From: Thermoguttaceae bacterium
Lineage (GTDB): Bacteria > Planctomycetota > Planctomycetia > Pirellulales > Thermoguttaceae
Assembly (NCBI GenBank): GCA_017937485.1
Contig: JAGBDN010000106.1
Span: 1 to 64,000, forward strand
Direction of reading: 5' to 3'
Length of the DNA stretch: 64,000 nucleotides
Position 1 is the stretch's first letter; each line of letters opens with the position of its first letter. Of this stretch, positions 9-39,003 are shown in pieces. The translations under genes and the position numbers were made by a program. A model generated the notes under the pieces. It was not told where the DNA came from. It searched no databases and saw only the letters and a program-made list of their open reading frames with translations.

Positions 9-470
9 TTACGCCTCCGACGTTTCCGGAACGGCGATTGCGGCCGCGTTCTCGTCGAGCGGCGAAACGCTTTCGCTCGACGCCGCGTCGTTTGGAAGTT
101 CGCCCGGCGCTTCGGCGTTCGCGTCGGTCGCAACTTCTTCGTTTGACCCGCTTTCCGGCGACGACATTTCGTCGAGCGTTTCCGGTTCGGCGACCTCCGG
201 AAGCGGGTCGGGCGCGACTTTCGAAAGGGACGCGTCGACGTCGAGACGAAGCGTTTCGTCGTTCGCAAGTTCGACCGCCGGAAAACGCGTCAAATAAGAA
301 CTTGTATTCGTCGCGCCGACGACTTCGAGCGTCGCGGTCAAGGCGTTGCGTCCGGTTTCGATCTGCGCTTCGGTCGGGTCGCCTTCGACGATAGCGGCGT
401 AAAGAACGGCGGTCGCGCCGCTCGGAACTTTCGCGACGGCAACGGGTTTCGTTTCGAGAATAGTTTCCAT
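9..470 (-). CDS. Phage protein of unknown function with acidic C-terminal half
   Basis: A 153-aa protein, last of the leftward late genes visible. The N-terminal ~80 residues look folded (beta-rich, with an FPAVELANDETLRLDV segment). The rest is a low-complexity tail rich in Glu, Pro, Ala and Ser. It lies directly downstream of the trypsin/thioredoxin gene with a 25-base gap, so it is probably co-transcribed with the tail module. No signal peptide, membrane segment or recognisable domain is seen. It could be a distal tail or virion accessory protein, but that is only positional inference. Confidence 0.7.
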   Translation of the reverse strand: METILETKPVAVAKVPSGATAVLYAAIVEGDPTEAQIETGRNALTATLEVVGATNTSSYLTRFPAVELANDETLRLDVDASLSKVAPDPLPEVAEPETLDEMSSPESGSNEEVATDANAEAPGELPNDAASSESVSPLDENAAAIAVPETSEA

Positions 471-495: not shown

Positions 496-2937
496 TTATT
501 TTTCGTTTATTTTTTCTTTGGGATTATTGCCCGACGTCTCGGGCGTTCCTTCGTCGCGGACGAGCCGGTACTTTGGCGCGTTCCCCCAGCATTTCGCGAG
601 CAAGCGGACGAGCCAATACCAAGCGCCCGCCGCGAACGCGCCCCAAACGCCGACCGCCGCCAACGCCGCTCCGGCGCGACGCTTCAAGCCGTCGACCGCC
701 GTTTCCAGTTTCGCCGTCGCCTCTTGCTCGACGCTGCCGATCAACGCGGTCGCCGACATAGCGACCGCCAGCGAAAGCTCGTCGATCTCCGTTCGCGCCG
801 CCTCCTCGACCTCCGCCGCCAACGCCGCCGCCTTCGCTCGCGCCGCCGTTTCCAACTCTCCGGCAACCGCGTCGATTCGCTCCCGCGCCGCTTTTTCCAG
901 CTCCGCCGCCAACGCTTCGACCTTCTCCCGCGCCGCCCGCTCGACCGCGCCGCCGATCAGCCCCGCCGTCGAATCGGTCGAACCGTCGGGCTTCCCGTCC
1001 CCGTCGTTTTCCGCTCCGACGTCCGGAACCGCGTCGCGAAACGGCGGCGTCCAACCGCGTTCGTACCGCTTCAACAGGTCGTCGACCGTCTTCGGCGGCG
1101 CCGCGTCGGTCTCAAACGCCGCGACCGGTTCCGCCGCGTCGCCCAACGTTTCCGCGCTCGCCTTCTCCGCTTCCGCGCTCGGTTCGCCGACTTCGTTCAG
1201 CGTCGACGTTTCCGACGTTTCAAGCGCTTCGCCGAACTCAAACGCAAGCGTCGGCAAGTCGTTCGTTTTCGACGCTTGCGGCGTTTCTTCCAAACGAACC
1301 GCCTTTGACGCGTCAATCGGCGGTTCGTCGGAATCGGTCGCCAACGTCGGCGACTCGGCGGCTTCCGCAACCTGCGTTTTCTCGGCGTTTTCGGTCGTTT
1401 GAGCGGTCGCTTCGTTCGGCAATTCAAACCGGCAAGCGACCAACGGCGTCGGAACCGGAATCGCCGTCGGTTCGAGGTCGCGACGCTCGCCGATTTTCGG
1501 TCGCGGCGCCGGTCGCGGTCGCGATTTGAAACGTTTGAAATTACTCGCGATACGTTCCCGACAGTCGGCTCCAACCCAAGCGTCGAGCGTCGCGACATAT
1601 TGTCCCGCCGCGTCGATTTCGACGAACGCAAACGCCGGAACGACGTTAAACCGATACGCCCGCCAAGCGCGCCCGCCTTCGGACGTTTCGACGTCTAACG
1701 CCTTGACCGGCCAACCTTTGCGCGCGAACTCTTCGACGACCGGCGTCGAACGCCGACACGCGCCGCAGTCTTTCGCGCTAAAATAGAGCAAAAGCGGCCG
1801 CGTCGGCTCGAACGCCAAGGGCGCGGCGTCGGAATCGCCGACCCAAACCGCCGGTTCGTATCGCGGCGACGCGGCATCGTCGGTTACGTCGCCGTCCGCC
1901 GAAGTAGAGCGAACCGGGAAGCAACCAACGGGAGCGGAGAAACCGAGTTCGAGCGGCAGCTCGGGCCCGGAGCGCCCGGCGGCGCCGCGGAGAGGAATAA
2001 TTCCCTCCGGAACCGGCGCGGAGAAGTCGACGACGCGGCCCGACGCCGCTTCGTACAGGAATTTCACCGGAATCGCGAGCCCGTGCGCGGCGTCGAAGTC
2101 GAAGTTTTGCGCGGTTTCCGCCGAACGATACGTCAGCGTCGCGCGGCATTCGAACCAACCTTCGGGACTGCGTTGGACGATTCCGGAACCGCTTTGACCT
2201 TGGAGCGGCGCCGGTTTGAACGTTTGGAGCCGCCCGAATTCGCCAATCGTTCGCCCGACCCAGGCTTGCGGCTCGCGCGCGCCGGGGCAACCGCAAGCGT
2301 AAATCGGTCGCGTCGGGTCGATTTGCGCTCGTTCGGACGGCGCGAGCGGAACGAGCGGCGGGACGTAACCGTCCAAATCGTCGCGTTTTACGGTCAAAAA
2401 CGCTTCGTCGTATTGCTTGCGCGAGTCGTAAAACTTCCGGTCGGGCCGCGCGTCGACCGAAACCGGCGCGCCGTCGCCGAAGTACTGAACAACGAACGAC
2501 TTGCAACCGTCGACGACGTGCGCGTTCGTCTTGACGACGTAATCGTTTTCGAGTTCGCCGACGGTTAGTCCGGAGCCGATTTGTGTCGCGTTTCCGCCGC
2601 TCGTCCCGACGACGCGACAGCTCGACCGATGCAAATCTTCCATATTCCAAGCGGCGGCCGCGACGGCGCGGCTCCCGTCCCGCGCTACCGCGCGAACTTG
2701 GTTTCGACGCTCCCGTCGGTCGCTCCCCGACTCGCTCAACTTCGCAACCGTCGACGCTTCCGGCGTTTGCGCCGGTTCCGACTCCGACGCGACGCTCCAA
2801 GACGTCGCAAGCTCCGCCAACGCGAACGCAACGACAAGAAGTCGCGCCGCAATTTGAGACGCTTTCGCCGACTTAGCCGCCGCGCGCTTCCAACTCGCCC
2901 GCGCCCGCTTGTAACGCTTCCGAATTTTCTTCTCCAT
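496..2937 (-). CDS. Trypsin-like protease fused to thioredoxin-like domain, membrane-anchored
   Basis: An 813-aa multidomain protein. A basic N-terminus precedes a hydrophobic segment (about 33-52). A chymotrypsin-fold protease follows, with the triad visible as H140 (TNAHVVDG), D177 (YDEAF) and S249 (GQSGSG). Residues about 380-470 form a thioredoxin-like domain with a C391-G-A-C394 centre and a VVP loop typical of the cis-proline site. Then come ~280 residues of Glu/Ala-rich repeats of coiled-coil type and a hydrophobic segment near 755-780 (AAVGVWGAFAAGAWYWLV). The gene sits at the distal end of the tail operon, so it may be virion-associated or act at the envelope. Two copies of the prophage's ~80-bp repeat lie inside it, one near the N-terminus and one between the protease and thioredoxin domains. 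I know no standard phage gene with this architecture. Confidence 0.85.
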   Translation of the reverse strand: MEKKIRKRYKRARASWKRAAAKSAKASQIAARLLVVAFALAELATSWSVASESEPAQTPEASTVAKLSESGSDRRERRNQVRAVARDGSRAVAAAAWNMEDLHRSSCRVVGTSGGNATQIGSGLTVGELENDYVVKTNAHVVDGCKSFVVQYFGDGAPVSVDARPDRKFYDSRKQYDEAFLTVKRDDLDGYVPPLVPLAPSERAQIDPTRPIYACGCPGAREPQAWVGRTIGEFGRLQTFKPAPLQGQSGSGIVQRSPEGWFECRATLTYRSAETAQNFDFDAAHGLAIPVKFLYEAASGRVVDFSAPVPEGIIPLRGAAGRSGPELPLELGFSAPVGCFPVRSTSADGDVTDDAASPRYEPAVWVGDSDAAPLAFEPTRPLLLYFSAKDCGACRRSTPVVEEFARKGWPVKALDVETSEGGRAWRAYRFNVVPAFAFVEIDAAGQYVATLDAWVGADCRERIASNFKRFKSRPRPAPRPKIGERRDLEPTAIPVPTPLVACRFELPNEATAQTTENAEKTQVAEAAESPTLATDSDEPPIDASKAVRLEETPQASKTNDLPTLAFEFGEALETSETSTLNEVGEPSAEAEKASAETLGDAAEPVAAFETDAAPPKTVDDLLKRYERGWTPPFRDAVPDVGAENDGDGKPDGSTDSTAGLIGGAVERAAREKVEALAAELEKAARERIDAVAGELETAARAKAAALAAEVEEAARTEIDELSLAVAMSATALIGSVEQEATAKLETAVDGLKRRAGAALAAVGVWGAFAAGAWYWLVRLLAKCWGNAPKYRLVRDEGTPETSGNNPKEKINEK
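1900..1982 (-). repeat. Dispersed ~80-bp repeat, copy b (in protease/thioredoxin gene)
   Basis: Read on the minus strand this shares long blocks with the copies at 35477 and 31245: GGGCCCGAGCTGCCGCTC, then CGAACTCGGTTTC, then CTCCCGTTGGT. It is sense to its host gene and encodes roughly residues 318-346, a linker between the protease and thioredoxin domains. The frame stays open. Confidence 0.8.
2667..2744 (+). repeat. Dispersed ~80-bp repeat, copy a (in protease/thioredoxin gene)
   Basis: The plus strand reads CGCGGCTCCCGTCCCGCGC, then TACCGCGCGAACTTGGTTTC, ending CGACTCGCTCAACTTCG, the same order of blocks as the other copies. It is antisense to the gene that contains it and encodes part of the basic segment at about residues 65-91. 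This second insertion in one gene has the opposite orientation to copy b. Confidence 0.75.
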
Positions 2938-2979: not shown

Positions 2980-3912
2980 TTAAATCTCCAAATCGAAATA
3001 CGTCGCGGTCGTAAACTCCGACGCGGCGACCGTTTGCGTCGTCGTGAAAAGCGGTTCGAAACGATGAAATTTCATCGTTTCCGTCGACTCTTCCCACGGC
3101 GCGCGCTCGAGCGTCTCGGCGTAAACGGCGCGATAACGCGTTATCCGGTAATCGTTCCCGCGTTTCAGAAAAAACGTTCCGTAAAGCGGGCACGGCGCCC
3201 CCGCGTTATGCGTCGGGCCGTGGTCGTCGATCGAACGTAAAACGGCGCGCTCGCCGGTCGTCAGGTTCTCGACGACGACAAGCGGTCGCGAATCGATATT
3301 ATACCAGTTTGCCGCCGTCGCGCCGTCGCCGGTATCCTCTTCGTCGACGTAGTAATGCCGGTCGTATATGTTCGGAGCGCCGTAATCGCCGCGAAGGTTG
3401 AATGCGACAAACTCCGTCGGGTAATATTCCGACGGTTCCGCAATATACAGGTCGCGCTTGTAATAGGTCGAACCGCCGGCGGTCGCCGTTCGATATTGGC
3501 GAATCGCCCACCAAACGGCGGCGCGCCACCGCTCGGCGTTCGCTTCGTCGGCGGCTTTCCACGTTTCTATCGCGGAAGACAACTCTTCCGCCGAAACGAG
3601 CGGGGCTCCCGCTTCGCCCGTTGAAAGCGTTAGCGTCGAAAAATCAAAAGCTCGCGGTTTCGCGACCGTCGCGACGCAATAAACGCACGCCTCAAAAAAC
3701 GGGTTCCCGCCTTCTGCGACTTTCGCGGCGTTATACGAACGGAAAAGCTCGACTATTTCCCGGCTAACGCTCTGGTGCGCAATACTCGAAATTCCCGACG
3801 ACGTTAGGGTCGCGTAACGATACCGAAACGTCGTTCCCGACCGCCAAACCCAATCGGGCGCGCTCCAAGCGCCGTTTCGACGGTCGAAATGGTTCGGACG
3901 AACAATATTCAT
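2980..3912 (-). CDS. Phage tail-region protein, unknown
   Basis: A 310-aa protein. The start is the ATG at 3912, which overlaps the stop of the preceding gene as ATGA; the open frame extends further upstream but only as a shadow of the neighbour. It is rich in Tyr, Thr and charged residues, with motifs such as SYNAAKVAEGG and NLTTGERAVLRSIDDHGP, and has no signal peptide or transmembrane segment. Its position three genes after the tape measure suggests a distal tail, baseplate or host-recognition component. No family was recognised. Confidence 0.8.
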   Translation of the reverse strand: MNIVRPNHFDRRNGAWSAPDWVWRSGTTFRYRYATLTSSGISSIAHQSVSREIVELFRSYNAAKVAEGGNPFFEACVYCVATVAKPRAFDFSTLTLSTGEAGAPLVSAEELSSAIETWKAADEANAERWRAAVWWAIRQYRTATAGGSTYYKRDLYIAEPSEYYPTEFVAFNLRGDYGAPNIYDRHYYVDEEDTGDGATAANWYNIDSRPLVVVENLTTGERAVLRSIDDHGPTHNAGAPCPLYGTFFLKRGNDYRITRYRAVYAETLERAPWEESTETMKFHRFEPLFTTTQTVAASEFTTATYFDLEI

Positions 3913-5455: not shown

Positions 5456-8400
5456 TTACCCCTCCACGACCAACGTCGCTTGGCCGTCGCCCCCGCTCTT
5501 TTGTCCGATCGACGCCAACATCGCGCCGATGCGACGCAAAAGCGCGTTCCCTTCGCGTTGCTCGCGAAGCGCCTTCTCTTGATATGCGTTGCGGAAACGG
5601 TTTTCGATTTGGAACGCTTCGGCGCTCCCGCGCGTCAACGCGCTTTGCGGCCCGAACGCTTCGTTTTCCTTCTTCGCCGCGTCGAGCGCTTTTTGCGCGC
5701 GGTCTTTTTCCAGCGAATCGAGCGACTCGCGCGCCGCGTTCGCGTCCCGAACGGCGCTTAAACGCTCGTCGTCGTTTTTCGCGTTTTGAAACGCGGCGAC
5801 CGCGTCGCCGAATTGCGCTCGATAAACGTTCGCGCGTTCGAAGTCGGTCGTCGCCGCCGACAAACTCAACTCGCGCGCAAGTTCTGTCTTGCTCTTCGCG
5901 ACTTCTTTTTCCTTTTCGAGCGCCTCTTTCGTCTTATTGCGCGCCTCTTCTTCCGCGTCGGTCGCTTGATTTCGGAGCGCTAAAATCTCTTGGTTTCGTT
6001 CGAAAACCGTCCGTTCGTCGTCGGTCGCTTTCGCCGAAGCCTGAAGCGTCGCGATTCGTTCGCGACAGAGCGCGGCGATTTTCGTTCCGTCGTCTTTCGC
6101 GGCGCGGAGCGCTTGGTTAAAGTCCGACGCCGACTGTTCTTTCGCAATATCGGCGAGCGTTTCCGACGCGGCTTTTCCGGCGTCGGCGACGCTCGAAGCG
6201 AACGCGTCGAACGCTTCTTTCCGTTCGCCGGTCAACGTCGACGCTTCCAAAATCGCCGCCTCGGTTAATAATTCGTTCGACGCCGCGAGGTTCGCGTTTC
6301 GAATCGAGCCCGCTTCCCAACGTTTCTCGTTAACGGTCGCCTCCGTTTGCGCGGAGGCTTGGCGAGTTTGATCGACGATTCCTTGGTACTTTTGAACGAC
6401 GGCGAGCCGCCCGGCTTCCGTTTGCGCGGCTTTGAGTTCCGTTTGAAAGTTCGTTTGGAGCGCCGCGAAATTTTGTTCGAACGTATGTTCGCCGACCAAT
6501 TGCGCCGCGTCGATTCGGGCGAGTTGCAACTCTTGAACGGCTTGCGCGCGCTTCGCAAGGTCGACCGTCTTCCCGGCGCGAAGGTCGGCGTCGAAACCGG
6601 CGACGTCGCTTTGCGCTTTTGTTACTCGCTCTTGCGCGGCGTCGCTCTTTTCGCGAAATTCGCGTTCGGAATCGCTCAAGCGCGCCAACTCGATTTTCCC
6701 CGCCGTCGACTTGGCGGTTTCGAACGCTTTGTTCCGAGCGTCGTTTTGCGTCCGACGGTCGGCTTCCGCTTTTTTCGCCGCTTCGGTCGCTTGCGCGGTC
6801 GCGCGACGTTGCTCCGCGAGGTCTTTTTCGGCCCGATAATTCTTTTGTGCTTCCGTTTGCGGGAAACGATCGCGAACCCATTTCGCGCCGCGTTCGCCGA
6901 AAAACGCTTTCGCGATCGCTTCGACGAGGAGCCCCGTCAAGCGTCGCGCGATTTGAACGGCGCCTTTGATCGCGCCGACGAGGAGTTCGCCGATCCATTT
7001 CGCCGCGACGGGGATTCCGGTCGTCGCGACCCATTTTAGCGCGTTCCCGGTCGCCGTCGCGATTTTCGGAAACCATTCGTTCAACGCTTTTTCAAGGAGC
7101 GCGGGCCCGCTTTTGAGCGCTTGCAACGCCCCGACGACCAGCCCGATCGGCCCGGCGAATCGCGTCAGCCCCTTCAAAACAAGCCCGACGCGTCCGCCGA
7201 CCGGAATCAAATTCGCTAACGCTTTCCCGACGGAATCGAGCGCTTTCAACGGGCCCGAAGCGACGTTCGTCGCCGTCGAGAGCGCCCGCGCTCCAACGCT
7301 CGGACGCGTTCGCATTCCCGCCGCGATCTCCGCGCCGCCGCTCGAAAGACGCGAACGCCAACCGCCGGAATAAAGTTCGGTCGCGAACGCCGCTTTTTCG
7401 ACGCCGCTCGGCCGCGACGGCGCCGCCCAACTTCGCGACGAAGACGCGTTTTTCGCCGCCGTCGAAGCGGAAACCGCCGCCGCTTCCCGACTCGCCGCCG
7501 CCGCGTTCGCGTTCCGCGCCGCCGTCTCTTGCGCCGTCGCCGCCGTCGCGGTTCGAGCCGCCGACGCGTTCGCGGTTTCCGCCGTCGTTTGCGCGGTCGT
7601 CGCGACTTCCGCGAGTCGCGAAATATTGAGGTACGTCTTGACGGCGCCCGCGACTCCGGCCAACGCGACGCCGAGCGGAACCGCCGTCGCGCCGAGAAGG
7701 CCGAAAACGGCGACGTTTTTTCGCGTCGAGTCGTCGAGCTTTAAAAGCGATTCGGCGAGCCCGCGCAATTTGACGACCGCCGCCGTCGCCGGTTCGATCA
7801 AAGCGTCGCCGAACGCCGCTTTTAAGTCGCTAAACTTGGCTTGGAGGGTTCCAAGTTGCGACGCGAAATTGTCTCCTTCGCGAACCGTTTGCCCGGTAAT
7901 GTCGGCGAATTGTTTGCGGAGAAGCGAAAGCGTCGCCTCCATTTTCGCCTCTTTTTCCGAAGCGAAAACGACGCCTTGTCGAGAAAGCGCGAGACGCTCC
8001 GCCGCGACGTCGGCCTCGTAAAACGCGATTCCGAGCGTTTTCAACCTTTCGCGTTCGCCGATCAACGCGGAAATCAACGCTTGCGATGTTTGCTCGACCC
8101 CGCCTTGCGCGTTCGTAAACGTCGCCAAGTCGCTCGCCATTCGGGCGAGTTCGCCCGACATTTCGAGCGCGCGACCGTCGGCGACTCCGGAGTTCTTCAG
8201 AATCGACGCGGACGTCGAAAGCGAGTTTAACGCGATCAATTCCGATTGGCCGTAAACGCTTTTCAGCTCGTCGACGTATTTTTGCGCGTCGTCGGTCAGT
8301 CCTTTAAAAACGGCGCGAAACTTCCCGCGCGCCTCTTGAACGTTCGACGCTTCCTTAACGAGCGAACTTGCGAAATCGAACGCTTTCCGCTGCGCGAAGA

Positions 8401-8536
8401 GCGCGGCGACCGCCGCCCCGACCGACGCCGCCGACTGTTTCAACGCGCCGAGTCGGTTCTCGAACTTCCCGATTTGCGCGAGCGCGTCCGCCGTTTTGAC
8501 TTGCAGCGCGACGCTAGCGATTACGTCGGAACTCAT
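5456..8536 (-). CDS. Tail tape measure protein
   Basis: A 1026-aa protein, the largest in the phage, almost entirely alpha-helical and Ala/Gln/Lys-rich. Hydrophobic stretches near residues 275-295 (GLLGATAVPLGVALAGVAG) and 460-560 are typical of tape measure proteins, which fix tail length and enter the host membrane during DNA ejection. The N-terminal 250 residues resemble the tape-measure domain (ASNVQEARGKFRAVFKGL, then FADITGQTVREGDNF). It lies immediately downstream of the frameshifting chaperone gene with an ATGA overlap, the textbook order. A degenerate copy of the dispersed repeat may lie at about 7374-7437. Confidence 0.92.
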   Translation of the reverse strand: MSSDVIASVALQVKTADALAQIGKFENRLGALKQSAASVGAAVAALFAQRKAFDFASSLVKEASNVQEARGKFRAVFKGLTDDAQKYVDELKSVYGQSELIALNSLSTSASILKNSGVADGRALEMSGELARMASDLATFTNAQGGVEQTSQALISALIGERERLKTLGIAFYEADVAAERLALSRQGVVFASEKEAKMEATLSLLRKQFADITGQTVREGDNFASQLGTLQAKFSDLKAAFGDALIEPATAAVVKLRGLAESLLKLDDSTRKNVAVFGLLGATAVPLGVALAGVAGAVKTYLNISRLAEVATTAQTTAETANASAARTATAATAQETAARNANAAAASREAAAVSASTAAKNASSSRSWAAPSRPSGVEKAAFATELYSGGWRSRLSSGGAEIAAGMRTRPSVGARALSTATNVASGPLKALDSVGKALANLIPVGGRVGLVLKGLTRFAGPIGLVVGALQALKSGPALLEKALNEWFPKIATATGNALKWVATTGIPVAAKWIGELLVGAIKGAVQIARRLTGLLVEAIAKAFFGERGAKWVRDRFPQTEAQKNYRAEKDLAEQRRATAQATEAAKKAEADRRTQNDARNKAFETAKSTAGKIELARLSDSEREFREKSDAAQERVTKAQSDVAGFDADLRAGKTVDLAKRAQAVQELQLARIDAAQLVGEHTFEQNFAALQTNFQTELKAAQTEAGRLAVVQKYQGIVDQTRQASAQTEATVNEKRWEAGSIRNANLAASNELLTEAAILEASTLTGERKEAFDAFASSVADAGKAASETLADIAKEQSASDFNQALRAAKDDGTKIAALCRERIATLQASAKATDDERTVFERNQEILALRNQATDAEEEARNKTKEALEKEKEVAKSKTELARELSLSAATTDFERANVYRAQFGDAVAAFQNAKNDDERLSAVRDANAARESLDSLEKDRAQKALDAAKKENEAFGPQSALTRGSAEAFQIENRFRNAYQEKALREQREGNALLRRIGAMLASIGQKSGGDGQATLVVEG
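7374..7437 (+). repeat. Possible degenerate copy of the dispersed ~80-bp repeat
   Basis: The plus strand contains CTCGGCCGCGACGGCGCCGC followed by CCAACTTCGCGAC, which matches the 3' third of the repeat (GGTCGCGACGGTTCCGC, CCAACTTCG). The upstream part is only weakly alike, so this may be chance or a decayed copy inside the tape measure gene. Confidence 0.35.
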
Positions 8537-12177: not shown

Positions 12178-13344
12178 TTAGCTCAAGGACGCCGCCGAAT
12201 CTTTAAGATTCGTAATCCGCGCCAACCGCGCCGCCGCGTTCTTAAATTCGAGCGTGAACTCGTTCAAAATCGTCAGTTCGACGCCGTCGTAACGCGGCGT
12301 CGTCGTGTCCTTTTGAATCCCCCAACGCCCGGCCAACGGCGCGAGCCCGAAGCCGTCCGTGTCGACGACCCAAACGTCGGAATCGGGGATATTGTAGTCG
12401 ACGACGATGCGCATCTGTTCGCCGGTCAAGTCGCAAATAATCGAATCGACCGTCCCGCCGCGCTCGCGGTCGCCCGGCGAGAGCGTAATTTGCGACGCCA
12501 TCAAGCTCGCCAAGACGCGTTTTTGACCCGGCCCGCAAATAATCGCGTTCGGACGCGCCCCCGCGTTCAAAATTTCCTCCGCCGCGTCGTTGATCAGGCG
12601 ATAAGAAAGCGGCGACGCCGTTCCGCCCGGCGACGCGTCGACTTCCGCCGCGCCGTCCGAAAGTCCGAAGTCGTAAAGCCCGCCCGCGCGTCCGCATTCG
12701 TCGTCGACGTCGCGTTCGGCCCGCGTTCCGAAAACGGCGATCTTGTCGAGTTCGCGCGCGACGTCGATCAACGCTCGTTTCGACTGCGCGATCACCGTGT
12801 TTTCGAGCCCGTGCGTTTGAATCGCCAAAAGGGAGCCGGACAACTTCACTTTCCCGCGAACGATTTGCGTGAAGTTGTGATTTTTCCCCGATTTTCCCCC
12901 CTTTTGCGGCCCGTCTTCCGAACCTTCGGCGATCGGATGGTAAAGAAACTGCAACGTTCCCCCCTCGGTCGGGAGCGTCGACGCGGCGAGCCCGCTTCCG
13001 TTGGCGGCGACGAAGGTCGTCGTTACCGTCTTCGCCGACTCGTCGACCGCGACGACTTTCAAGGTCGCCGTCTTTCCTTTGATCGCGACGTAATCCCCCT
13101 TTTCAAACGCTTTCGCGCCCTTCGCCTCTTCGAACGTAAAGACGCCCTCCGCCGTCGCCGACAGGTACGCGACTTCTTTCGGCTTCAACGAATCTTCCAG
13201 CCATTCGTGCCGAAGCGCCTTCGCCGGAGCCTTCGTCGGAAAGAGATTGATGAAACCCGGCTGCTTAACGATCAGCGTCGACAGCGTGTCGCCCAGGTCG
13301 ATTTTCGCCAACTCGTTCCAAAACGCGGTGTAATCGACGTTCAT
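12178..13344 (-). CDS. Major capsid protein, SU10/DUF5309-like
   Basis: A 388-aa protein that fits the SU10 major head protein family (HK97 fold). The diagnostic middle region is NHNFTQIVRGKVKLSGSL, followed by a helix (ENTVIAQSKRALIDVARELD) and IAVFGTRAE. A later segment, ICGPGQKRVLASLMA, and the C-terminal VWVVDTDGFGLAPLAG and YDGVELTILNEFTLEF strands match the family's end. An inserted acid/Thr-rich domain (about 75-125) may be a surface-exposed insertion. The gene follows the scaffold with a 15-base gap, and a GGGGG-type ribosome site precedes the start. Confidence 0.85.
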   Translation of the reverse strand: MNVDYTAFWNELAKIDLGDTLSTLIVKQPGFINLFPTKAPAKALRHEWLEDSLKPKEVAYLSATAEGVFTFEEAKGAKAFEKGDYVAIKGKTATLKVVAVDESAKTVTTTFVAANGSGLAASTLPTEGGTLQFLYHPIAEGSEDGPQKGGKSGKNHNFTQIVRGKVKLSGSLLAIQTHGLENTVIAQSKRALIDVARELDKIAVFGTRAERDVDDECGRAGGLYDFGLSDGAAEVDASPGGTASPLSYRLINDAAEEILNAGARPNAIICGPGQKRVLASLMASQITLSPGDRERGGTVDSIICDLTGEQMRIVVDYNIPDSDVWVVDTDGFGLAPLAGRWGIQKDTTTPRYDGVELTILNEFTLEFKNAAARLARITNLKDSAASLS

Positions 13345-14504: not shown

Positions 14505-14747
14505 ATGCGCGTTGCAAATAAAAAAATTAAATCGTTTTTGGGAACGCTTTATAGCGGTTTTACTTCCCTTGCGGCGACGTTTGCCGCGTTGTCTTTGTTC
14601 CCGTCGATGAACGACTGCTTGAACGAATTAACGAAAACTAAACCGACGATTTCCGAACAAACGAACGGCGCGTTGCGCGTTTATTGGGCGACGGTTGGCG
14701 GTTATTTGAATAAGTCTCTCCAAAATGAAACGGAAAAAAAACTCTAA
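14505..14747 (+). CDS. Moron protein, unknown
   Basis: An 80-aa protein on the strand opposite to the surrounding late genes, with a strong ribosome site and its own promoter. One moderately hydrophobic stretch (TLYSGFTSLAATFAALSLFP) might insert in the membrane. The gene overlaps the next by 23 bases, so the two are probably made together. Position, strand and lower GC mark it as a moron, expressed from the prophage and carried for lysogenic benefit. No family was recognised. Confidence 0.7.
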   Translation: MRVANKKIKSFLGTLYSGFTSLAATFAALSLFPSMNDCLNELTKTKPTISEQTNGALRVYWATVGGYLNKSLQNETEKKL

Positions 14748-15324
14748 TCTTCCGCAAAAATCGCGCCCCGACGCGAAACAAGCGGAACCTCCGGTTCCGT
14801 CTAACGCCGAATATTCCGTTTCGCCGTCTCCGAACGGCGCCGAAGACTTAACGATCGACGGCTCGGTAGCTTTTGGGCTTCGTTATACGTCCCAAAAAAC
14901 GACGCTATTCGAAACTTATCCCGGGCCGTCGCCGGAATCTATAAAAGCTTTTGAAGAGGCGTCCCCCGGTTTAGGCGAACGCATTTTCGCGATGTCGGAA
15001 AGAGAACAAGCGGCGACGATTGAAGAGCGAAAACAAACCGCCGCTCTTCAAGAGAAAATTATCGACCGCGAGTTTGAACTACGGTCTCGCGGTCAAAATC
15101 GAGCGTTGGTTGCGTTCGTTTGCTTGTGTATCCTGATAGGTTGGTTGGCAAAGTTAAAAACCTTAGGAATAAGTTCGATTGTTACGGGAATTGTCGGTTT
15201 TATCGTCGCTTGGTCGATTTTTAGCGGCGGCAAAAAGAACAATCTTTTCGAAACGCTTAAAAACCAAGAAAAAAACGTCGTTCAAGCTAGCGAAAACGAA
15301 ATTTCCAAACGCGACGCCGCCTAA
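14725..15324 (+). CDS. DUF2335-like predicted membrane protein (moron)
   Basis: A 199-aa protein. A polar N-terminal half carries the family signature (PGPSPESIKAFEEASPGLG followed by ERIFAMSEREQAATIEERK). Two adjacent transmembrane helices follow at about 130-148 and 152-168 (ALVAFVCLCILIGWLA and ISSIVTGIVGFIVAWSIF), then a charged tail. DUF2335 proteins are small inner-membrane proteins often found in prophages and plasmids, with no settled function. It is co-transcribed with the 80-aa gene. Confidence 0.8.
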   Translation: MKRKKNSNLPQKSRPDAKQAEPPVPSNAEYSVSPSPNGAEDLTIDGSVAFGLRYTSQKTTLFETYPGPSPESIKAFEEASPGLGERIFAMSEREQAATIEERKQTAALQEKIIDREFELRSRGQNRALVAFVCLCILIGWLAKLKTLGISSIVTGIVGFIVAWSIFSGGKKNNLFETLKNQEKNVVQASENEISKRDAA

Positions 15325-18703: not shown

Positions 18704-20206
18704 TCAAAGCGCGTCGGCTTCGCCGAGAAGTTGTTCTTCGTTGTCCTCGAACGGGTCGAGAACGCCGCCGCTCGCGACGCCGACGAGCCGGTAAAGTTGC
18801 CGACGCGACAAAAGGGGCGTTCCGGTCGCGCCGTTCTCCCGCATCAGCGACACGATCGCCGGAAGCTGGAAGTCGTCGGCCAAGTACGACGCGTTCGCTT
18901 CGTATTTGACGTTCGCCGCGATCTCGTCGCGACTCCAACCGAGCCAAGCGGCGGCGAAACAAAGTTGTTCTTCGAGCGCCCGCGCGCCGGTTTTGTCGAT
19001 CGTCGCGATCGTCGCCGTCCCGGAGTCGGCCCGAAGCGACAACGCTTTCGCCGACGCGTTCGCGCCGCCGCCGTCGAAAAGATCGCGAATCGACGAAAAA
19101 CGCAACGACGTTTTAATCTCCTCTTTCGCTTGACGAATTTCCGCGAGCCCGGCCCCGGTCGTTTCGAGAAGCGCCGCGTCCGCGCCGTCTCCGGACGCGC
19201 CGTTAAGAAAGATCGCGTCGCCGAGATAAAGCGGGGCCCCCGTCGACGCGACGTTCTTCACGACGAGCGTCGGCGACGCGAAATTCCAAAGAGCCGTTTT
19301 GTAAATCGAGTCGATTTGATAGTTTGCGACGGCGATTCGCGCGACGTCCCAATAAGGCGGCGCTTGTCGCGCTTCGACGCCGAGTCGGTCGACGTTCGCG
19401 ACGGTAAACGGAACGAAGTCGAGCGTTCGCCCCTTGAACGACGGATAAACGAGCCGGTCGCAAAGGGCCGCGTTCGGGTTTTCGAGGTCGAACGCGTTCC
19501 ATTTCGCCGACGCGTCGCCGTCGAACAGCGCTTGATAATAGACGCCGCGCCCGTCGAGCGCGCAAAGCCGGTAACGCTCGACCCAGTCGCGCGACTTCGT
19601 GCGCGGATTGAAGCGCGGCGCGCTCTCGTCGCAAAGAATCCAGCGCAACCGCGACGTTCCGAACCGTTCGCGCGTCTCTTCGCCGTCGAGAATCGACGCC
19701 GCCGGATACTCCGAAACGACGAAACGCGGGTTCAGCCCCTCGGCGTCGGTCGCGACGTCGAGCAAGAGCCCGTACCGCCCGAAAAGCGTTTGCCCGAAGT
19801 TGACGCGTTGCTTTAAGCCCGAAAAGCCGTCGTTTTGCGACGTTCCGAAATAATAAAGGTCGCGCAAAACGTCCGGCGCCGCGTTCAAGTCGCCGTCGGC
19901 GCGAAACTGGACGGTCGGCGCCTTCGTCTGCATCACGCCGACGACGTCGTCGATAATCGACCGGAAAAAATTGTCGTAAACGCCGTAAGCCAACCGCGTT
20001 CGGTACTTCGTTCGCCGCTCCGGTTCGCCCGCGAACTTCTCTTCTTCGCTCGCTTCCCGCTCCGTCGGCGGGAGGTAAAAAAAGGCGCGCGAACCGAAAA
20101 AGCCCAAATCGCCCTTCGCGTCTTTGATCGCGTCCGCGCCCGCGTAAGCGTCGGCGACGAACCGCCGCGCGGCTTCGAAACGTCGTTCGCTAAACGTTCT
20201 TCCCAT
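18704..20206 (-). CDS. Portal protein (DUF4055-like)
   Basis: A 500-aa protein with the portal pattern. The N-terminal helix-rich part (YDNFFRSIIDDVVGVMQTKAP) is followed by a conserved central stem region (IDSIYKTALWNFASPTLVV). The later SAKALSLRADSGTATIATIDKTGA segment is characteristic of DUF4055-family portals. It forms the dodecameric ring through which DNA is packaged. It lies directly downstream of the large terminase with a 9-base gap. Confidence 0.85.
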   Translation of the reverse strand: MGRTFSERRFEAARRFVADAYAGADAIKDAKGDLGFFGSRAFFYLPPTEREASEEEKFAGEPERRTKYRTRLAYGVYDNFFRSIIDDVVGVMQTKAPTVQFRADGDLNAAPDVLRDLYYFGTSQNDGFSGLKQRVNFGQTLFGRYGLLLDVATDAEGLNPRFVVSEYPAASILDGEETRERFGTSRLRWILCDESAPRFNPRTKSRDWVERYRLCALDGRGVYYQALFDGDASAKWNAFDLENPNAALCDRLVYPSFKGRTLDFVPFTVANVDRLGVEARQAPPYWDVARIAVANYQIDSIYKTALWNFASPTLVVKNVASTGAPLYLGDAIFLNGASGDGADAALLETTGAGLAEIRQAKEEIKTSLRFSSIRDLFDGGGANASAKALSLRADSGTATIATIDKTGARALEEQLCFAAAWLGWSRDEIAANVKYEANASYLADDFQLPAIVSLMRENGATGTPLLSRRQLYRLVGVASGGVLDPFEDNEEQLLGEADAL

Positions 20207-20215
20207 CTTGCCCCC

Positions 20216-21517
20216 TTAAAAAAATCGAAATTCGCCGCGCGTCGCCGACGCGGCCGCGCCCGCCAAATCGGTCAGCGCCCAAACGAGCGCGTCGAGCCGG
20301 TCGGGCGAACCTTCGGTCGCGTCGCCGACGTAACTCGTCATCTGCTCTTCCAGTTCCGGAAACGTCCCGACGTGCGCGACGAGTCCGCGTTCGTAAAGCG
20401 CCGCGACCGGTTCCGCTCGAAGCAACTTCCCGCGCGTCGCTCGAACGCTCTTCGTCGGCAAGTTCGGGTCGACGTTGCGAAGCGTCGCGACGACGAGGTC
20501 GCCCCCTTGGTTCGTCTCGGCGACGACGCGATCGGCGCGCCAACGTTCGAACGCCGCGACGACCGCCCGCGCCCAACGCTCCGGCGACGCTTTAACGGTC
20601 GCGTCGTCGAGAACGTAAAAGCGCCGCTCCCCCGCTTCGCGTCGCGACGCGGCGACGACGATTCCCGTTTCGTCCGAGTTCGCCGCCGAAGTAACCGCCG
20701 GGTCGACCCCGACGACGACGCGTTCGAACTCCCCGCCCGCGCGAACTTCGTCGAGCGTTCGACGAAACGGGTCGATCAACGACGGCTTCCAAAGCGCGTT
20801 TTCGTTCTCGTCGGCCCATTCGCCGAGGAGGAACCGCCGCCGCGCCTTCCCGGAAAGGCTCGACTCCATATCGGCCAAATATTGCGCCGACAGGTTCCGC
20901 GCGTTGTCGCGCGGGTTCATCTGAAACGCGACGTAATTTTCCGGGTTCGTCAACGGCGCGTTCGTGATCGGATGTTTCTTTTCGACGAAGAGCTTGTAAG
21001 TCCAATGCGCTTTCGTCGGCGGGTTGCAGTCGAAAAACGCGATATTCCGCGCAAGGAGCGGCGTCTTTTCGGCCAAGCGCGTCAAGGCGACTTCGACCGA
21101 ATCGAAGGAAATTTCGGAACACTCGTTAAAATAAACGACCGAAAATTCCTTCCCGAGGACTTTTTCGACGCGTTCCTTGTTGTCGAGTCCGAGCGTCCAA
21201 ATTTCGGCGCCGTTGTGCGGAAATGAAACGTAAAAGTCGGTTCGGTCGACCTTAACGGGAACGTCGGGGAAGCAGAGTTTCAACACCTTGGGGAGCGTGT
21301 CGGCGAAAACGGCGGTCTTGACCGCGTTGAAGTTGCGCCGAAAAATCGCGCTCCGACCGCCCGCGACCGCCGCGATCGTTAAGATTTCCCGAACAATTTC
21401 GAACGTCTTGCCGGAGCGCGAGCCGCCGAACGCCATCACGCGCGACGCGCCGCTCGACGCGATTTTCGCAAACTTTCGTTGCGCTTCGGTCGGTTCGAAC
21501 TTCGCCGCGTCGCTCAT
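20216..21517 (-). CDS. terL: Terminase large subunit
   Basis: A 433-aa packaging motor. The ATPase domain has Walker A GGSRSGKT (about 31-38), Walker B VVYFNECSE and a coupling motif FDCNPP. The nuclease domain has VVGVDPAVT, VVAETNQGG and the terminal DRLDALVWALTDL, which carry the acidic residues of the RNase H-like site. It cuts and pumps DNA into the procapsid with TerS and the portal. It follows terS after a 164-base gap that contains two hairpins. Confidence 0.95.
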   Translation of the reverse strand: MSDAAKFEPTEAQRKFAKIASSGASRVMAFGGSRSGKTFEIVREILTIAAVAGGRSAIFRRNFNAVKTAVFADTLPKVLKLCFPDVPVKVDRTDFYVSFPHNGAEIWTLGLDNKERVEKVLGKEFSVVYFNECSEISFDSVEVALTRLAEKTPLLARNIAFFDCNPPTKAHWTYKLFVEKKHPITNAPLTNPENYVAFQMNPRDNARNLSAQYLADMESSLSGKARRRFLLGEWADENENALWKPSLIDPFRRTLDEVRAGGEFERVVVGVDPAVTSAANSDETGIVVAASRREAGERRFYVLDDATVKASPERWARAVVAAFERWRADRVVAETNQGGDLVVATLRNVDPNLPTKSVRATRGKLLRAEPVAALYERGLVAHVGTFPELEEQMTSYVGDATEGSPDRLDALVWALTDLAGAAASATRGEFRFF

Positions 21518-21681: not shown

Positions 21682-22359
21682 TTATCCTTCGATTCCCTTC
21701 CCGTTCCCCTTCGCGCCGCCTGGAAGCGTTCCGGCGGCAAAAAAAGCGACGTCGGTCTCCTGCACGACGATCGTCGGCGGCCCCGCGACCGCGACGTTCG
21801 TCGTCTTCGTCCAGCCGCGACTCGCGCCCTTCGTCTCCAAAACGAAGAAAATCGCCGGAAGCGAACCGCTTTGGAGTTTTTCGACAAGCTTCTCCTCGGC
21901 GAGGTCGACGATTTCGCCGACGACGTCGACCGCCGCGATCGCGTCGCGGAACGCCGGAACCGATTCGAGCCAACGATAATAAGACGACCGGTCGACCCGC
22001 GCCTCCCGACAAGCCTTCGCGACGTTCCCGAACCGCGACTTGTACGCCTCGACGAGCCGCGCTTGCTTCTCGCTAAGCTCCAAACCAAGCGACGCCGCCC
22101 CGCTTTCGACGATTTCCGTCGTTTCCGTCGCGCGGCGACCGCTCCGCTCCGGGCCCGCGCTTCCGCTCGAGTTCGGCTTCTTCGCTTTCGTCGGTCGCTC
22201 CTCGACTCGCTCAACTTCGACGTTCGTTTTCTTCGTCGCCTTCTTTGCCGCCGCCTTCTTAACGACCGCCTTTTTCGTCGCGCTCTTCGTCGCCGCCTTC
22301 TTCGCGACCGTCTTTTTGACGTTTTTTCCCTTTTTGTCTTCTTCGCTTGCGTCGGCCAT
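21682..22359 (-). CDS. terS: Terminase small subunit with histone-like basic N-terminus
   Basis: A 225-aa protein. The first ~50 residues are a Lys/Ala repeat (KKTVAKKAATKSATKKAVVK) like the tails of histone H1-type bacterial proteins. A segment encoded by a dispersed repeat copy follows. Then comes a helix-turn-helix domain (LSEKQARLVEAYKSRFGNVA, then ACREARVDRSSYYRWLE) typical of TerS, and an oligomerisation helix (EIVDLAEEKLVEKLQSGSLP). It recognises the packaging site and stimulates TerL. The basic extension may add non-specific DNA binding. Confidence 0.82.
   Translation of the reverse strand: MADASEEDKKGKNVKKTVAKKAATKSATKKAVVKKAAAKKATKKTNVEVERVEERPTKAKKPNSSGSAGPERSGRRATETTEIVESGAASLGLELSEKQARLVEAYKSRFGNVAKACREARVDRSSYYRWLESVPAFRDAIAAVDVVGEIVDLAEEKLVEKLQSGSLPAIFFVLETKGASRGWTKTTNVAVAGPPTIVVQETDVAFFAAGTLPGGAKGNGKGIEG
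22131..22219 (+). repeat. Dispersed ~80-bp repeat, copy c (in terS)
   Basis: The plus strand reads CTCCGGGCCCGCGCTTCCGC, then TCGAGTTCGGCTTC, then TCGGTCGCTCC and CGACTCGCTCAACTTCG, the common block order. It is antisense to terS and encodes the segment with KKPNSSGSAGPERSGRR between the Lys-rich tail and the HTH domain. Confidence 0.8.
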
Positions 22360-23297: not shown

Positions 23298-24392
23298 TCA
23301 AAGATATAATTGGACGGTTTCCGTAAGTTCCTTTTCGAATCGATAAATATCGTCGATCGATTTGATCGGAAAGCGCGTTTCATTCTTGTCTTTATCGAAA
23401 AGTCCGATGAACTTCTTTTTGCGCTCTTCGCCGCCGCTTTCGAGATACAAACGGCAAATCGGTTTCCGATTATTGTCGTCGAACAATATCGCGAAATAAG
23501 AAATAGAATCGCGATGTTTGACACGCGTCGGCGCGACGACGTTGCGCAATAACGAACGCACCAAGAAAAACGCCTCCAATTCCTCGACGGTGGTAACGAT
23601 TCGGTCTTTGACGGCAAGTTTTTCTTGCTCGGGCGTCGAGTTTTCTTCAGACGCGGCTTCCGGAGTTTGGGCGTCGTCGTTCGACTCGTCGGCGTTCAGC
23701 GCGCGGGTAAACGCCGACGCAATACGGTCGTTGACGATTTGAGAGACGGCGTTTTTAACGATCGGCGCGAACTGTTCGATCGTTTTAGGGGTCGCATTAA
23801 TTTCGAGAGCCGACAAAACGACGCGAACAAAGTCGGCGCTCGGGTCGGCAAATTCCCGCGTCAACGCCGATTTAACGCGAGCCGAATCTTTTTGAGCGCG
23901 GGCCCACTTCACGACTTCCGGCGCGTTGAGCGCTCCCTTGGCAAACCGACTTATCGCTTCGATTCCGCGTTCCGGCGCGTCGATACGATAAGTAAAAAAC
24001 GGGCTCGAATCCAAGATGTTGGGGTTGTCGAGGTCGCCGTAGAAACGGTATTCGACGCCGTTGGTGAGACAGCCGAATTGGGCTTTTGAAACGGCGAAAT
24101 AGCGGAAAAGCTGTCCGTTGTGCTTGTCGAGATTTTGCCCCCAATGCTTGCATTCGACAAGCAGAAGCGGCGCGCCGTCTTGGCAAATTGCGAAATCGAC
24201 TTTTTCCCCTTTTTTGATACCAAAATCGCAAGTGTACTCCGGCGCTACCTCGCGCGGATTGAAGACGTCGTAACCGAGCGCGTTCAAAAAGGGCAAAACG
24301 AGCGCGTTTTTAGTCGCTTCTTCCGTTGGCGCCGCCTCCTTCACCGAGTCGACGCGTTCGCTTAACCGTTTCAGGGACTCGAGCAGTTCCAT
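23298..24392 (-). CDS. Restriction-endonuclease-like protein (type I HsdR N-terminal-like domain)
   Basis: A 364-aa protein. The N-terminal ~150 residues match the PD-(D/E)xK domain of type I restriction R subunits and related stand-alone proteins: ATKNALVLPFLNALGYDVFN, then DFAICQDGAPLLLVECKHWG, giving Asp...Glu-x-Lys. The middle is helical and the C-terminal ~90 residues form a small beta domain (RDSISYFAILFDDNNRKPIC). No helicase motor is present, so it is not a full HsdR. These proteins are frequent prophage accessory genes, possibly in defence against other phages. A ribosome site AGGAGCTC precedes the ATG. Confidence 0.78.
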   Translation of the reverse strand: MELLESLKRLSERVDSVKEAAPTEEATKNALVLPFLNALGYDVFNPREVAPEYTCDFGIKKGEKVDFAICQDGAPLLLVECKHWGQNLDKHNGQLFRYFAVSKAQFGCLTNGVEYRFYGDLDNPNILDSSPFFTYRIDAPERGIEAISRFAKGALNAPEVVKWARAQKDSARVKSALTREFADPSADFVRVVLSALEINATPKTIEQFAPIVKNAVSQIVNDRIASAFTRALNADESNDDAQTPEAASEENSTPEQEKLAVKDRIVTTVEELEAFFLVRSLLRNVVAPTRVKHRDSISYFAILFDDNNRKPICRLYLESGGEERKKKFIGLFDKDKNETRFPIKSIDDIYRFEKELTETVQLYL

Positions 24393-29466: not shown

Positions 29467-29823
29467 ATGATTTTGATCGCGACGTTTAGAAAAGACGACA
29501 AGCCGAACGGCGAGTTTTACCGTCTCCTTTGGGAGCCGCGAACCGGCGTCGTTTGGACGCGTCGAAGTTTCGGCGAGCCGCGAACTTGGCCGACGCTTTA
29601 CTTCGCGAAGCGCCGTTTCGCCGTCGACGTAATGGTCGCCGACGTTTGGGGCGGTCGCTATCCGAAAACCTTTCGAGCGATTCCGCGCCGCCCGCCGAAC
29701 TCGGCTTCCCCTCCCGACCGCGACCGCGCGGCTCCGGGCCCGCGCTACCGCGCGAGGCGGGTTTCGGCTCCCGATGGTCGCGACGGTTCCGCCCAACTTC
29801 CAAACAAGGAGAAAACGCGATGA
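29467..29823 (+). CDS. Early phage protein with repeat-derived C-terminus
   Basis: A 118-aa protein. Residues 1-75 look folded (MILIATFRKDDKPNGEFYRL, then TWPTLYFAKRRFAVDVMVAD). The last ~40 residues are encoded entirely by a dispersed repeat copy and read DRDRAAPGPRYRARRVSAPD, then GRDGSAQL. The repeat therefore supplies a new C-terminus. The stop overlaps the next start (ATGA). Confidence 0.65.
   Translation: MILIATFRKDDKPNGEFYRLLWEPRTGVVWTRRSFGEPRTWPTLYFAKRRFAVDVMVADVWGGRYPKTFRAIPRRPPNSASPPDRDRAAPGPRYRARRVSAPDGRDGSAQLPNKEKTR
29695..29800 (+). repeat. Dispersed ~80-bp repeat, copy d, with partial duplication
   Basis: The core copy (29716-29800) reads CGCGCGGCTCCGGGCCCGCG, CTACCGCGCGAGGCGGGTTTC, then GGTCGCGACGGTTCCGC and CCAACTTC. 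Just before it GAACTCGGCTTCCCCTCCC looks like the middle part of a second copy. It is sense to the gene that contains it and forms its C-terminus. Confidence 0.8.
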
Positions 29824-37767: not shown

Positions 37768-39003
37768 ATGGCCAGTTTGCAGGAACGAAAACGACGCGGC
37801 GAAAGCGCGTTCGTTATCCAATTTTATTTGAACGGCAAGCGGAAGAGTCTCTTTTTGGGGGCGAAATATTCGCGGTCGTTCGCGGAGGAAATTTGCCGCG
37901 TCGTCGAAAAGGTCGTCGTCGCGTTGACGACCGGTTCGAACGTCGACCGGCGAACTTACGCTTGGCTCGAGTCGATGGAAGTCGACTTGCGCGAGCGTTT
38001 CGAGAGCGCGGGTCTGCTCGAACCGGAAATCCGCTTGACGCTCGGCGAGTTGTTCGACGCGTATTTCCGGGCGGAAGATTCGGCGATGCGACCGATCACC
38101 TTCCGGAACAAAACGCGCTCGGCGGCGATTTTCTTCGAGCTTTTCGAGCGTTCGCGCGACGTTTCGACGTTTGCGAAATCGGACGCGTTGCGTCTGATCG
38201 CGGCGCTCGACCGCAAATACGCGGAGGCGACGCGCGCCGGAGTCGTTCGGGACGTTTCGCGGGTTTTCTCGTGGGCGGTCGAGACGGAACTTCTGGACGT
38301 GTCGCCGTTTAAGGGCGTGAAGCGCGGTTCGTTCAAGAACAAGAGTCGAGAGACGTTCGTCGACCGCGCGACGTATTCGCGACTTTTGGAAGCGTCGAGC
38401 GACCAAGAGACGCGAACGCTGATCGCGTTGTACCGAATCGGCGGATTGCGCAAGTCGGAGGCGCTTTGCGTCGAGTGGCGCGACGTCGATTTCGCGACCG
38501 GGCGGATGCTCGTTCACTCGCCGAAGACGGCGGGTTGCGGTCGCCCTTCGCGGATTATCCCGCTTTTCCCGGAGTTGCGGGCGGAGTTGGAAGCGCTTTG
38601 GGACTTGGTTCCGGAGGGCGAAAGTCGGTACGTGATCGCGCGGAACCGAAACCCGAACACGCTCCGCAAGCGAATCGAACGGGTCGTATTTTACGCGGGC
38701 CTTCCCCTTTGGGAACGCCTGATTCAAAATATGCGATCGAGTCGAGCGAACGAAATTTTTCGCGAGTTCGGCCAAATCGCGGAACGGGAGTGGATCGGTC
38801 ATTCGACGGCGACGGCGCAAGACCATTACCTCCACATTCTGGAAGCGGAATACGACCGCGCCGCCGGAACGCTCCCGACTCGCGAAAAACCGAACGCGCG
38901 ACCGACGACGCTCGACGAAAAAACAAACGCGCGACCGACGGCAACCACTTTGGGAAATTTCAAAAGAGGTTGCGAAACCGGTTGCGCGACAGAAGAAAAA
39001 TAA
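37768..39003 (+). CDS. int: Tyrosine recombinase (phage integrase)
   Basis: A 411-aa integrase. An N-terminal arm-binding domain (1-80) and a SAM-like core-binding domain (90-180) are followed by the catalytic domain with R228 (GGLRKSE), R323/R326 (NMRSSRANE) in the box II region, H345 (WIGHSTATA) and the nucleophile Y354 (QDHYLHI). The second box has R-x-x-R without the usual H-x-x-R His, a variant seen in some planctomycete integrases. The Thr/Lys/Asn-rich C-terminal tail has a short KPNARPTT/KTNARPTA repeat. It is located beside tRNA-Arg, its likely target. Confidence 0.92.
   Translation: MASLQERKRRGESAFVIQFYLNGKRKSLFLGAKYSRSFAEEICRVVEKVVVALTTGSNVDRRTYAWLESMEVDLRERFESAGLLEPEIRLTLGELFDAYFRAEDSAMRPITFRNKTRSAAIFFELFERSRDVSTFAKSDALRLIAALDRKYAEATRAGVVRDVSRVFSWAVETELLDVSPFKGVKRGSFKNKSRETFVDRATYSRLLEASSDQETRTLIALYRIGGLRKSEALCVEWRDVDFATGRMLVHSPKTAGCGRPSRIIPLFPELRAELEALWDLVPEGESRYVIARNRNPNTLRKRIERVVFYAGLPLWERLIQNMRSSRANEIFREFGQIAEREWIGHSTATAQDHYLHILEAEYDRAAGTLPTREKPNARPTTLDEKTNARPTATTLGNFKRGCETGCATEEK

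Follow-up and report, generated by a model that had tools for sequence, protein, structure and literature searches.

The closest described counterparts of the protein analyzed here are the HtrA/Deg proteases (DegP, DegQ and the membrane-anchored DegS; MEROPS S1C), the protease MarP (Rv3671c) and the thioredoxin/PDI family. With the HtrA/Deg enzymes it shares the trypsin fold, the TN-HVV and GxSG motifs and a predicted periplasmic location, and with DegS a membrane tether as well. Unlike them, it shows no PDZ domain to Pfam, is predicted to be anchored at its C-terminus rather than its N-terminus, carries a thioredoxin domain and is encoded by a phage. MarP is likewise a membrane-anchored periplasmic protease of the trypsin type, and is linked to it by a weak profile match and by fold, but MarP differs in its N-terminal multi-pass membrane domain and lacks a thioredoxin. 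The CxxC centre, the conserved proline and the fold of thioredoxins and PDIs also recur, although here the domain follows a protease in the same chain and is predicted to be held at the membrane.

Next to nothing is known, to our knowledge, of the way phages leave bacteria that lack standard peptidoglycan enzymes. We describe a late-gene family of gut planctomycete phages that was previously without annotation. The starting point was a stretch of 64,000 nucleotides (the window), which forms the start of a Thermoguttaceae contig; the named relatives are from goat, buffalo and deer gut MAGs. A conserved phage enzyme that pairs proteolysis with disulfide chemistry points to a candidate envelope target and makes the question testable.

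Results

A minus-strand gene for a predicted exported, membrane-tethered protease-thioredoxin

The 813-codon reading frame at 496–2937 given in the preliminary description exists, and lies on the minus strand (Table 1). It starts with ATG, preceded by a GGGGGAG ribosome-binding site, and three internal stops rule out a plus-strand reading of the same interval. The trypsin-like triad (H140/D177/S249), the CGAC thioredoxin-like centre (C391/C394), the coiled coil and the hydrophobic C-terminal segment of that description were all recovered, whereas the export signal at the N-terminus and the inserted repeats are additions to it. A short cationic tail follows the C-terminal helix. Because the protein carries both an export signal and a C-terminal anchor, the two enzyme domains are expected in the periplasm, and the predicted topology is N-out, C-in. 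We regard its identity and topology, an exported, membrane-tethered protease-thioredoxin from a prophage late operon, as very probable.

Table 1. Features of the window, with nucleotide positions in the window and residue positions in the protease-thioredoxin.
Feature	Nucleotides	Residues	Strand	Evidence or remark
Protease-thioredoxin membrane protein gene	499..2937	813 aa	−	Stop codon 496–498
Export signal (predicted): long basic n-region and hydrophobic segment (aa 29–47)	2788..2937	1–50	−	Hydropathy, sequence
Dispersed-repeat copy, inverted; in-frame linker between signal and protease	2643..2744	∼65–98	−	blastn, 77% over 102 nt
Trypsin/HtrA-fold protease domain	2035..2646	98–301	−	Pfam, AlphaFold, Foldseek, V8 alignment
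Triad codons	2518–2520; 2407–2409; 2191–2193	H140; D177; S249	−	
Dispersed-repeat copy, direct; disordered linker between protease and thioredoxin	1885..1990		−	Alignment; linker pLDDT <50
Thioredoxin domain	1513..1839	367–475	−	Pfam, solved-structure profiles, AlphaFold
Thioredoxin-centre codons	1765–1767; 1756–1758; 1636–1638	C391; C394; P434	−	
Acidic/Pro-rich low-complexity tether	949..1512	476–663	−	Sequence; dN/dS 0.80 over most of it
Ala/Glu-rich helical (coiled-coil) stalk	673..948	∼664–755	−	Sequence; long helix in relative L045
C-terminal TM helix (predicted)	607..663	∼759–777	−	Hydropathy; found in all complete relatives
Next operon gene	9..470	153 aa	−	61% in syntenic G009:C228
Preceding tail-operon gene	2980..3912	310 aa	−	94% identical in G009:C228
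Tail tape measure protein	5456..8536		−	PHROG 1533, E 3e-8
Major head protein, same phage	12178..13344		−	PHROG 1328, E 6.5e-30
Portal and terminase large subunit genes	18704..21517		−	PHROGs
Integrase, near right end of prophage	37768..39003		+	PHROG 1, E 4e-26
Further dispersed-repeat copies	22145–22222; 29706–29781; 31242–31333; 35494–35562			

Fold and active sites of the two domains

Structure prediction and profile searches, two of the checks proposed with the preliminary description, both bore out the two domains. AlphaFold2, run on residues 86–483 with 19 relatives, formed two well-folded domains (pLDDT mostly 82–95) joined by a disordered linker (residues ∼302–375). Pfam Trypsin_2 matched residues 130–255 above its gathering cut-off (E 8.7e-8), and the best PDB matches of the protease model by Foldseek were DegP, DegQ, DegS, HtrA and MarP. 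When a protease-only profile was compared with solved structures, H140, D177 and S249 aligned with the TNKHVV, GDLAIV and GNSGS motifs of V8 protease, which supports the triad at the residue level. The two-barrel fold, with His, Asp and Ser in canonical motifs, places the domain among the S1 trypsin-fold peptidases (Trypsin_2/HtrA-like).

Three narrower assignments were rejected. In HtrA/Deg proteins proper the protease is followed by one or two PDZ domains; Pfam found no PDZ domain in 17 members, the thioredoxin domain occupying that place instead. The match to the MarP family model (NF033740) reached 19 bits against a cut-off of 250. A prohead or virion maturation protease would be cytoplasmic and co-assembled with the head, whereas an export signal and a TM helix are predicted here. 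Known prohead proteases belong to a different fold class.

For the thioredoxin domain, the Pfam match (residues 379–443, E 1.2e-4) fell just below the cut-off, phmmer against solved structures retrieved thioredoxin 2f51 (E 4e-7), and a profile built from 19 aligned relatives reached E ∼1e-11 against solved thioredoxins and PDIs. The fold, the CGAC centre and Pro434 together assign it to the thioredoxin superfamily. The dipeptide within CxxC varies among relatives (GA, AP, VA, PP, PA, NK).

Conservation and coupling of the domains among relatives

About 25 relatives were collected, distributed over several unrelated siphophage-type prophages of Thermoguttaceae (Planctomycetota). Asp177 and Ser249 are invariant, and the CxxC and proline are kept in every member that has a thioredoxin domain. 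His140 is kept in every relative covering the position except one, G016:C51 (L028 6532–8553), which has Cys at this place (TNACVV) and retains Asp, Ser and CxxC; judged by its sequence, that protease is possibly inactive. The signal region (residues 1–50) is 61–88% conserved, and hydropathy predicts an export signal and a C-terminal TM helix in the complete members. A divergent relative of 551 residues, L045, was modelled at full length as a signal helix, protease, thioredoxin, ∼110 disordered residues and a continuous helix of ∼100 residues (442–540) that contains the TM segment.

Among close relatives dN/dS was 0.04–0.19 in the protease, 0.08–0.20 in the thioredoxin and 0.22–0.80 in the low-complexity tether, a pattern that indicates purifying selection on both domains. 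Between the window and C17 copies, dS was lower at the signal and anchor (0.35–0.47) than in the protease and thioredoxin (1.0–1.4), suggesting that the end modules may have been exchanged between phages by recombination.

The two domains are not always fused. G006 encodes, in the same capsid gene cluster, a protease-TM protein without thioredoxin and a separate signal-thioredoxin protein, and in G058 a membrane thioredoxin, a small TM protein and a protease-TM protein lie in a row, with the thioredoxin two genes from the protease. The occurrence of the split pair in the same cluster argues that the two activities would work together. Phages are not the only carriers of the domain pair, since host chromosomes of the family carry Trx-Trypsin_2 proteins (e.g. 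G042:C1); these have the same two domains in one protein but in the reverse order, and no phage context was noticed around them.

In a phylum-wide sampling (E ≤ 1e-12) the fusion was found only in the window's own genome; searching the whole family brought in one more genus, g29. INPHARED yielded no relative (tblastn, two family members as queries), and neither did the 76 pattern matches of an IMG/VR scan with the family alignment. No PHROG names a protease-thioredoxin fusion, the matches being weak, to an unnamed family and, for some members, to 'thioredoxin domain'; literature searches turned up no relevant account of a trypsin-thioredoxin protein in phages or planctomycetes. The earlier remark that no phage gene of this design was known thus holds for the collections searched.

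A dispersed repeat lies in frame within the linkers

Both linkers that flank the protease contain copies of a dispersed GC-rich repeat of ∼70–90 nt (consensus GGCGCCGCCGGGCGCTCCGGGCCCGCGCTACCGCGCGAACTCGGTTTCCGCTCCCGTTGGTCGCT...CGCCCAACTT). At least 32 copies occur in the window's own genome, many apparently intergenic, and the repeat was found at many places in G000, G009 and G011. Several copies sit in frame within linkers of the phage family: the linkers of L043 hold two, and the G009 orthologue has an extra copy behind the thioredoxin that is absent from the window gene. The arrangement recalls the Rickettsia palindromic elements.

The gene belongs to the late operon of a siphophage-type prophage

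A siphophage-type prophage occupies the left part of the window; in it PHROGs identified TerL, portal, head morphogenesis, scaffold, major head and connector genes, and also tail terminator, chaperone, tape measure and neck genes, in agreement with the tail-operon setting first described. The prophage runs off the contig beyond the 153-codon gene; in G009:C228 a beta-helix protein comes after the homologue of that gene. Within the head module, two small genes lie on the opposite strand (14505–15324, plus), the second matching PHROG 3996 (membrane protein) and, weakly, a holin family; they are possibly a moron. A 364-codon prophage gene (23298–24392, minus) is probably the source of a Pfam match to HSDR_N (type I restriction subunit N-terminal).

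Relatives occur beside unrelated portals (PHROGs 145, 21 and 113) and heads (PHROGs 1328 and 1005), and these several unrelated contexts rule out a restriction of the family to one phage type. The position varies from after the tail genes (window and C17 types) to the connector/tail interval (C84, C31 and G108 types) and the TerL/portal interval (G001). A small membrane or amphipathic protein of 66–93 residues adjoins the protease in about eight contexts; no small TM gene adjoins the window's own copy.

Some of the contexts have further features. In G000:C31 (L074 8197–11107), L050 and L076, three consecutive envelope-type genes, encoding a secreted Cys-containing protein of 134–136 residues, the protease-Trx-TM protein and a 75-residue TM protein, are inserted between tail terminator-like and tail-completion-like genes. 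The 55-kb contig G001:C10 (L045/L066/L067) is probably a complete circular Thermoguttaceae phage, because its ends share an exact 99-bp overlap; it encodes ThyX, a secreted CAP-domain protein and collagen-like tail fibres. In G006:C3 (L052 5691–13718) and G012:C241 (L053), a compact cluster of scaffold, major head, connector, ParB-like, ATPase-GNAT and secreted thioredoxin genes is divergent from the protease-TM and beta-helix genes. No portal, terminase or tape measure was seen near this cluster, which is possibly a capsid-bearing satellite or a domesticated element.

Wherever the phage context is clear, the gene nearly always lies amid head and tail genes, and in several phages beta-helix genes adjoin it or lie near it. 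Both observations would suit a part of the virion that serves in virion protein maturation or works on the envelope at entry, as the preliminary description had proposed. We consider such a component highly unlikely: tailed virions are assembled in the cytoplasm, which fits poorly with the predicted export signal and C-terminal TM helix, and the gene keeps no constant place relative to the tail genes, the G001 copy lying between TerL and portal. Maturation of virion proteins is unsupported, since the domains are predicted to be periplasmic. Breaking of envelope disulfides is a possible part of that proposal; as for its timing, the anatomy suits an enzyme at work inside the cell late in infection more than a virion part used at entry.

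The gene is separated from its neighbours by 42 bp upstream and about 25 bp downstream, relatives in other phages overlap their neighbours at start and stop codons, and no promoter-like site was found near the start of the window gene. Given this packing within a late operon and the little promoter room, the gene is more likely to be expressed late than in the lysogen. The earlier suggestion of work in the lysogen membrane was apt as to the membrane and less so as to the lysogen. The same spacing bears on a lysogenic-conversion (moron-like) or host-supporting role in envelope quality control, easing stress or phage protein load: it leaves little promoter or terminator room for independent expression, and late operons are normally silent in lysogens. 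Such a role, which we judge unlikely, would account for the resemblance to the quality-control proteases DegP, DegQ and DegS, for the reverse-order proteins on host chromosomes, for a late-operon position that differs between phages as it does for morons, and for one G110 copy that is flanked by host-like genes.

Late expression would also come too late for most superinfection exclusion or receptor editing, in which a periplasmic protease would destroy the tail tip, tape measure or receptor of a rival phage. The membrane tether and periplasmic orientation are compatible with exclusion, genomes hold several divergent copies in different prophages, and the PADLOC LmuA model (PDLC03855) picks up 10 of 17 members (best E 2.3e-9). 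We read the LmuA and PDC-S45 matches as probably reflecting a generic trypsin-like domain rather than membership of a defence system; a Lamassu effector would pair the LmuA match with an LmuB partner. No defence partner was identified, and the persistence of the family in unrelated phages suggests that it serves a core need they have in common, so that exclusion appears very unlikely.

Wall genes of the host and lysis enzymes of the phages

In the 16 host-genus genomes (G000–G015), searches for PBP transpeptidase, SEDS and GT51 genes were negative throughout (0/16 each), whereas the same search was positive in 10 of 14 control genomes. The host genus keeps GT4 and one or two Mur ligase domains per genome. 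Missing wall genes need not mean a missing wall, because biochemical work has reportedly detected peptidoglycan in other planctomycetes, Rhodopirellula baltica among them (PMC5147048, citing Jeske 2015). Whether the planctomycete envelope is a proteinaceous wall or contains peptidoglycan has been debated since the 1980s (PMC5147048).

A Pfam search of 91 phage proteins, which represent part of the proteins of each phage (26 from the window, 24 from G001:C10 and 41 from other phages), recovered no lysozyme, amidase or peptidase endolysin. Similarly, no lysis enzyme appeared among the 25 PHROG families listed, of 42 in all, for the 24 G001:C10 proteins.

Discussion

Where a late operon tightly embeds the gene of an envelope-targeted enzyme, the product is most often a lysis protein. 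Our leading reading, put forward tentatively, is that the window protein is a candidate envelope-opening (lysis) enzyme for a host without canonical peptidoglycan machinery. Late in the lytic stage of the prophage, the protein would leave the cytoplasm and stay fixed in the inner membrane through its C-terminal helix, so as to hold a DegS/MarP-like protease and a thioredoxin in the periplasm on a flexible tether and a helical stalk. The protease would cut envelope proteins, the CxxC centre would reduce or reshuffle their disulfides, and the envelope of a host without standard peptidoglycan polymerases and transpeptidases would be weakened. The protein would thereby take the job done elsewhere by an endolysin and a spanin, with the small adjacent membrane protein probably a partner in many of these phages.

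The export and anchor signals, the late-operon place, the conserved active sites, the small membrane protein beside the gene in about eight contexts, the lack of a recognised lysis enzyme among the proteins scanned and the wall genes missing from the host genus speak for a role in lysis. On the other side, Pfam could have missed an endolysin of an unrecognised family, and lysis genes may be located past the contig end, which cuts the window prophage. The window type has no small TM neighbour, the G016:C51 copy has Cys instead of the catalytic His, and a periplasmic reductase needs an electron donor. It is because of the peptidoglycan of other planctomycetes, the incomplete prophage and the missing small TM neighbour that we hold the lysis reading tentatively. 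The more specific proposition, that tailed phages of planctomycetes without canonical peptidoglycan machinery lyse their hosts through a membrane-tethered protease-thioredoxin that dismantles a disulfide-bonded protein envelope, as a protein-based counterpart of the endolysin and spanin, is rather doubtful at present.

Among known phage lysis proteins, u-spanins combine an N-terminal lipobox with a C-terminal TM segment; the window protein has the predicted TM segment, and by inspection no lipobox Cys is present at its signal cleavage region, so it was not classed with them. With spanins and SAR endolysins in general it shares a late-operon gene, a probable envelope target and a predicted membrane anchor, and with spanins also a coiled-coil stalk. 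Unlike them, it has neither a murein-hydrolase domain nor a lipobox, and its catalytic domains are a protease and a thioredoxin.
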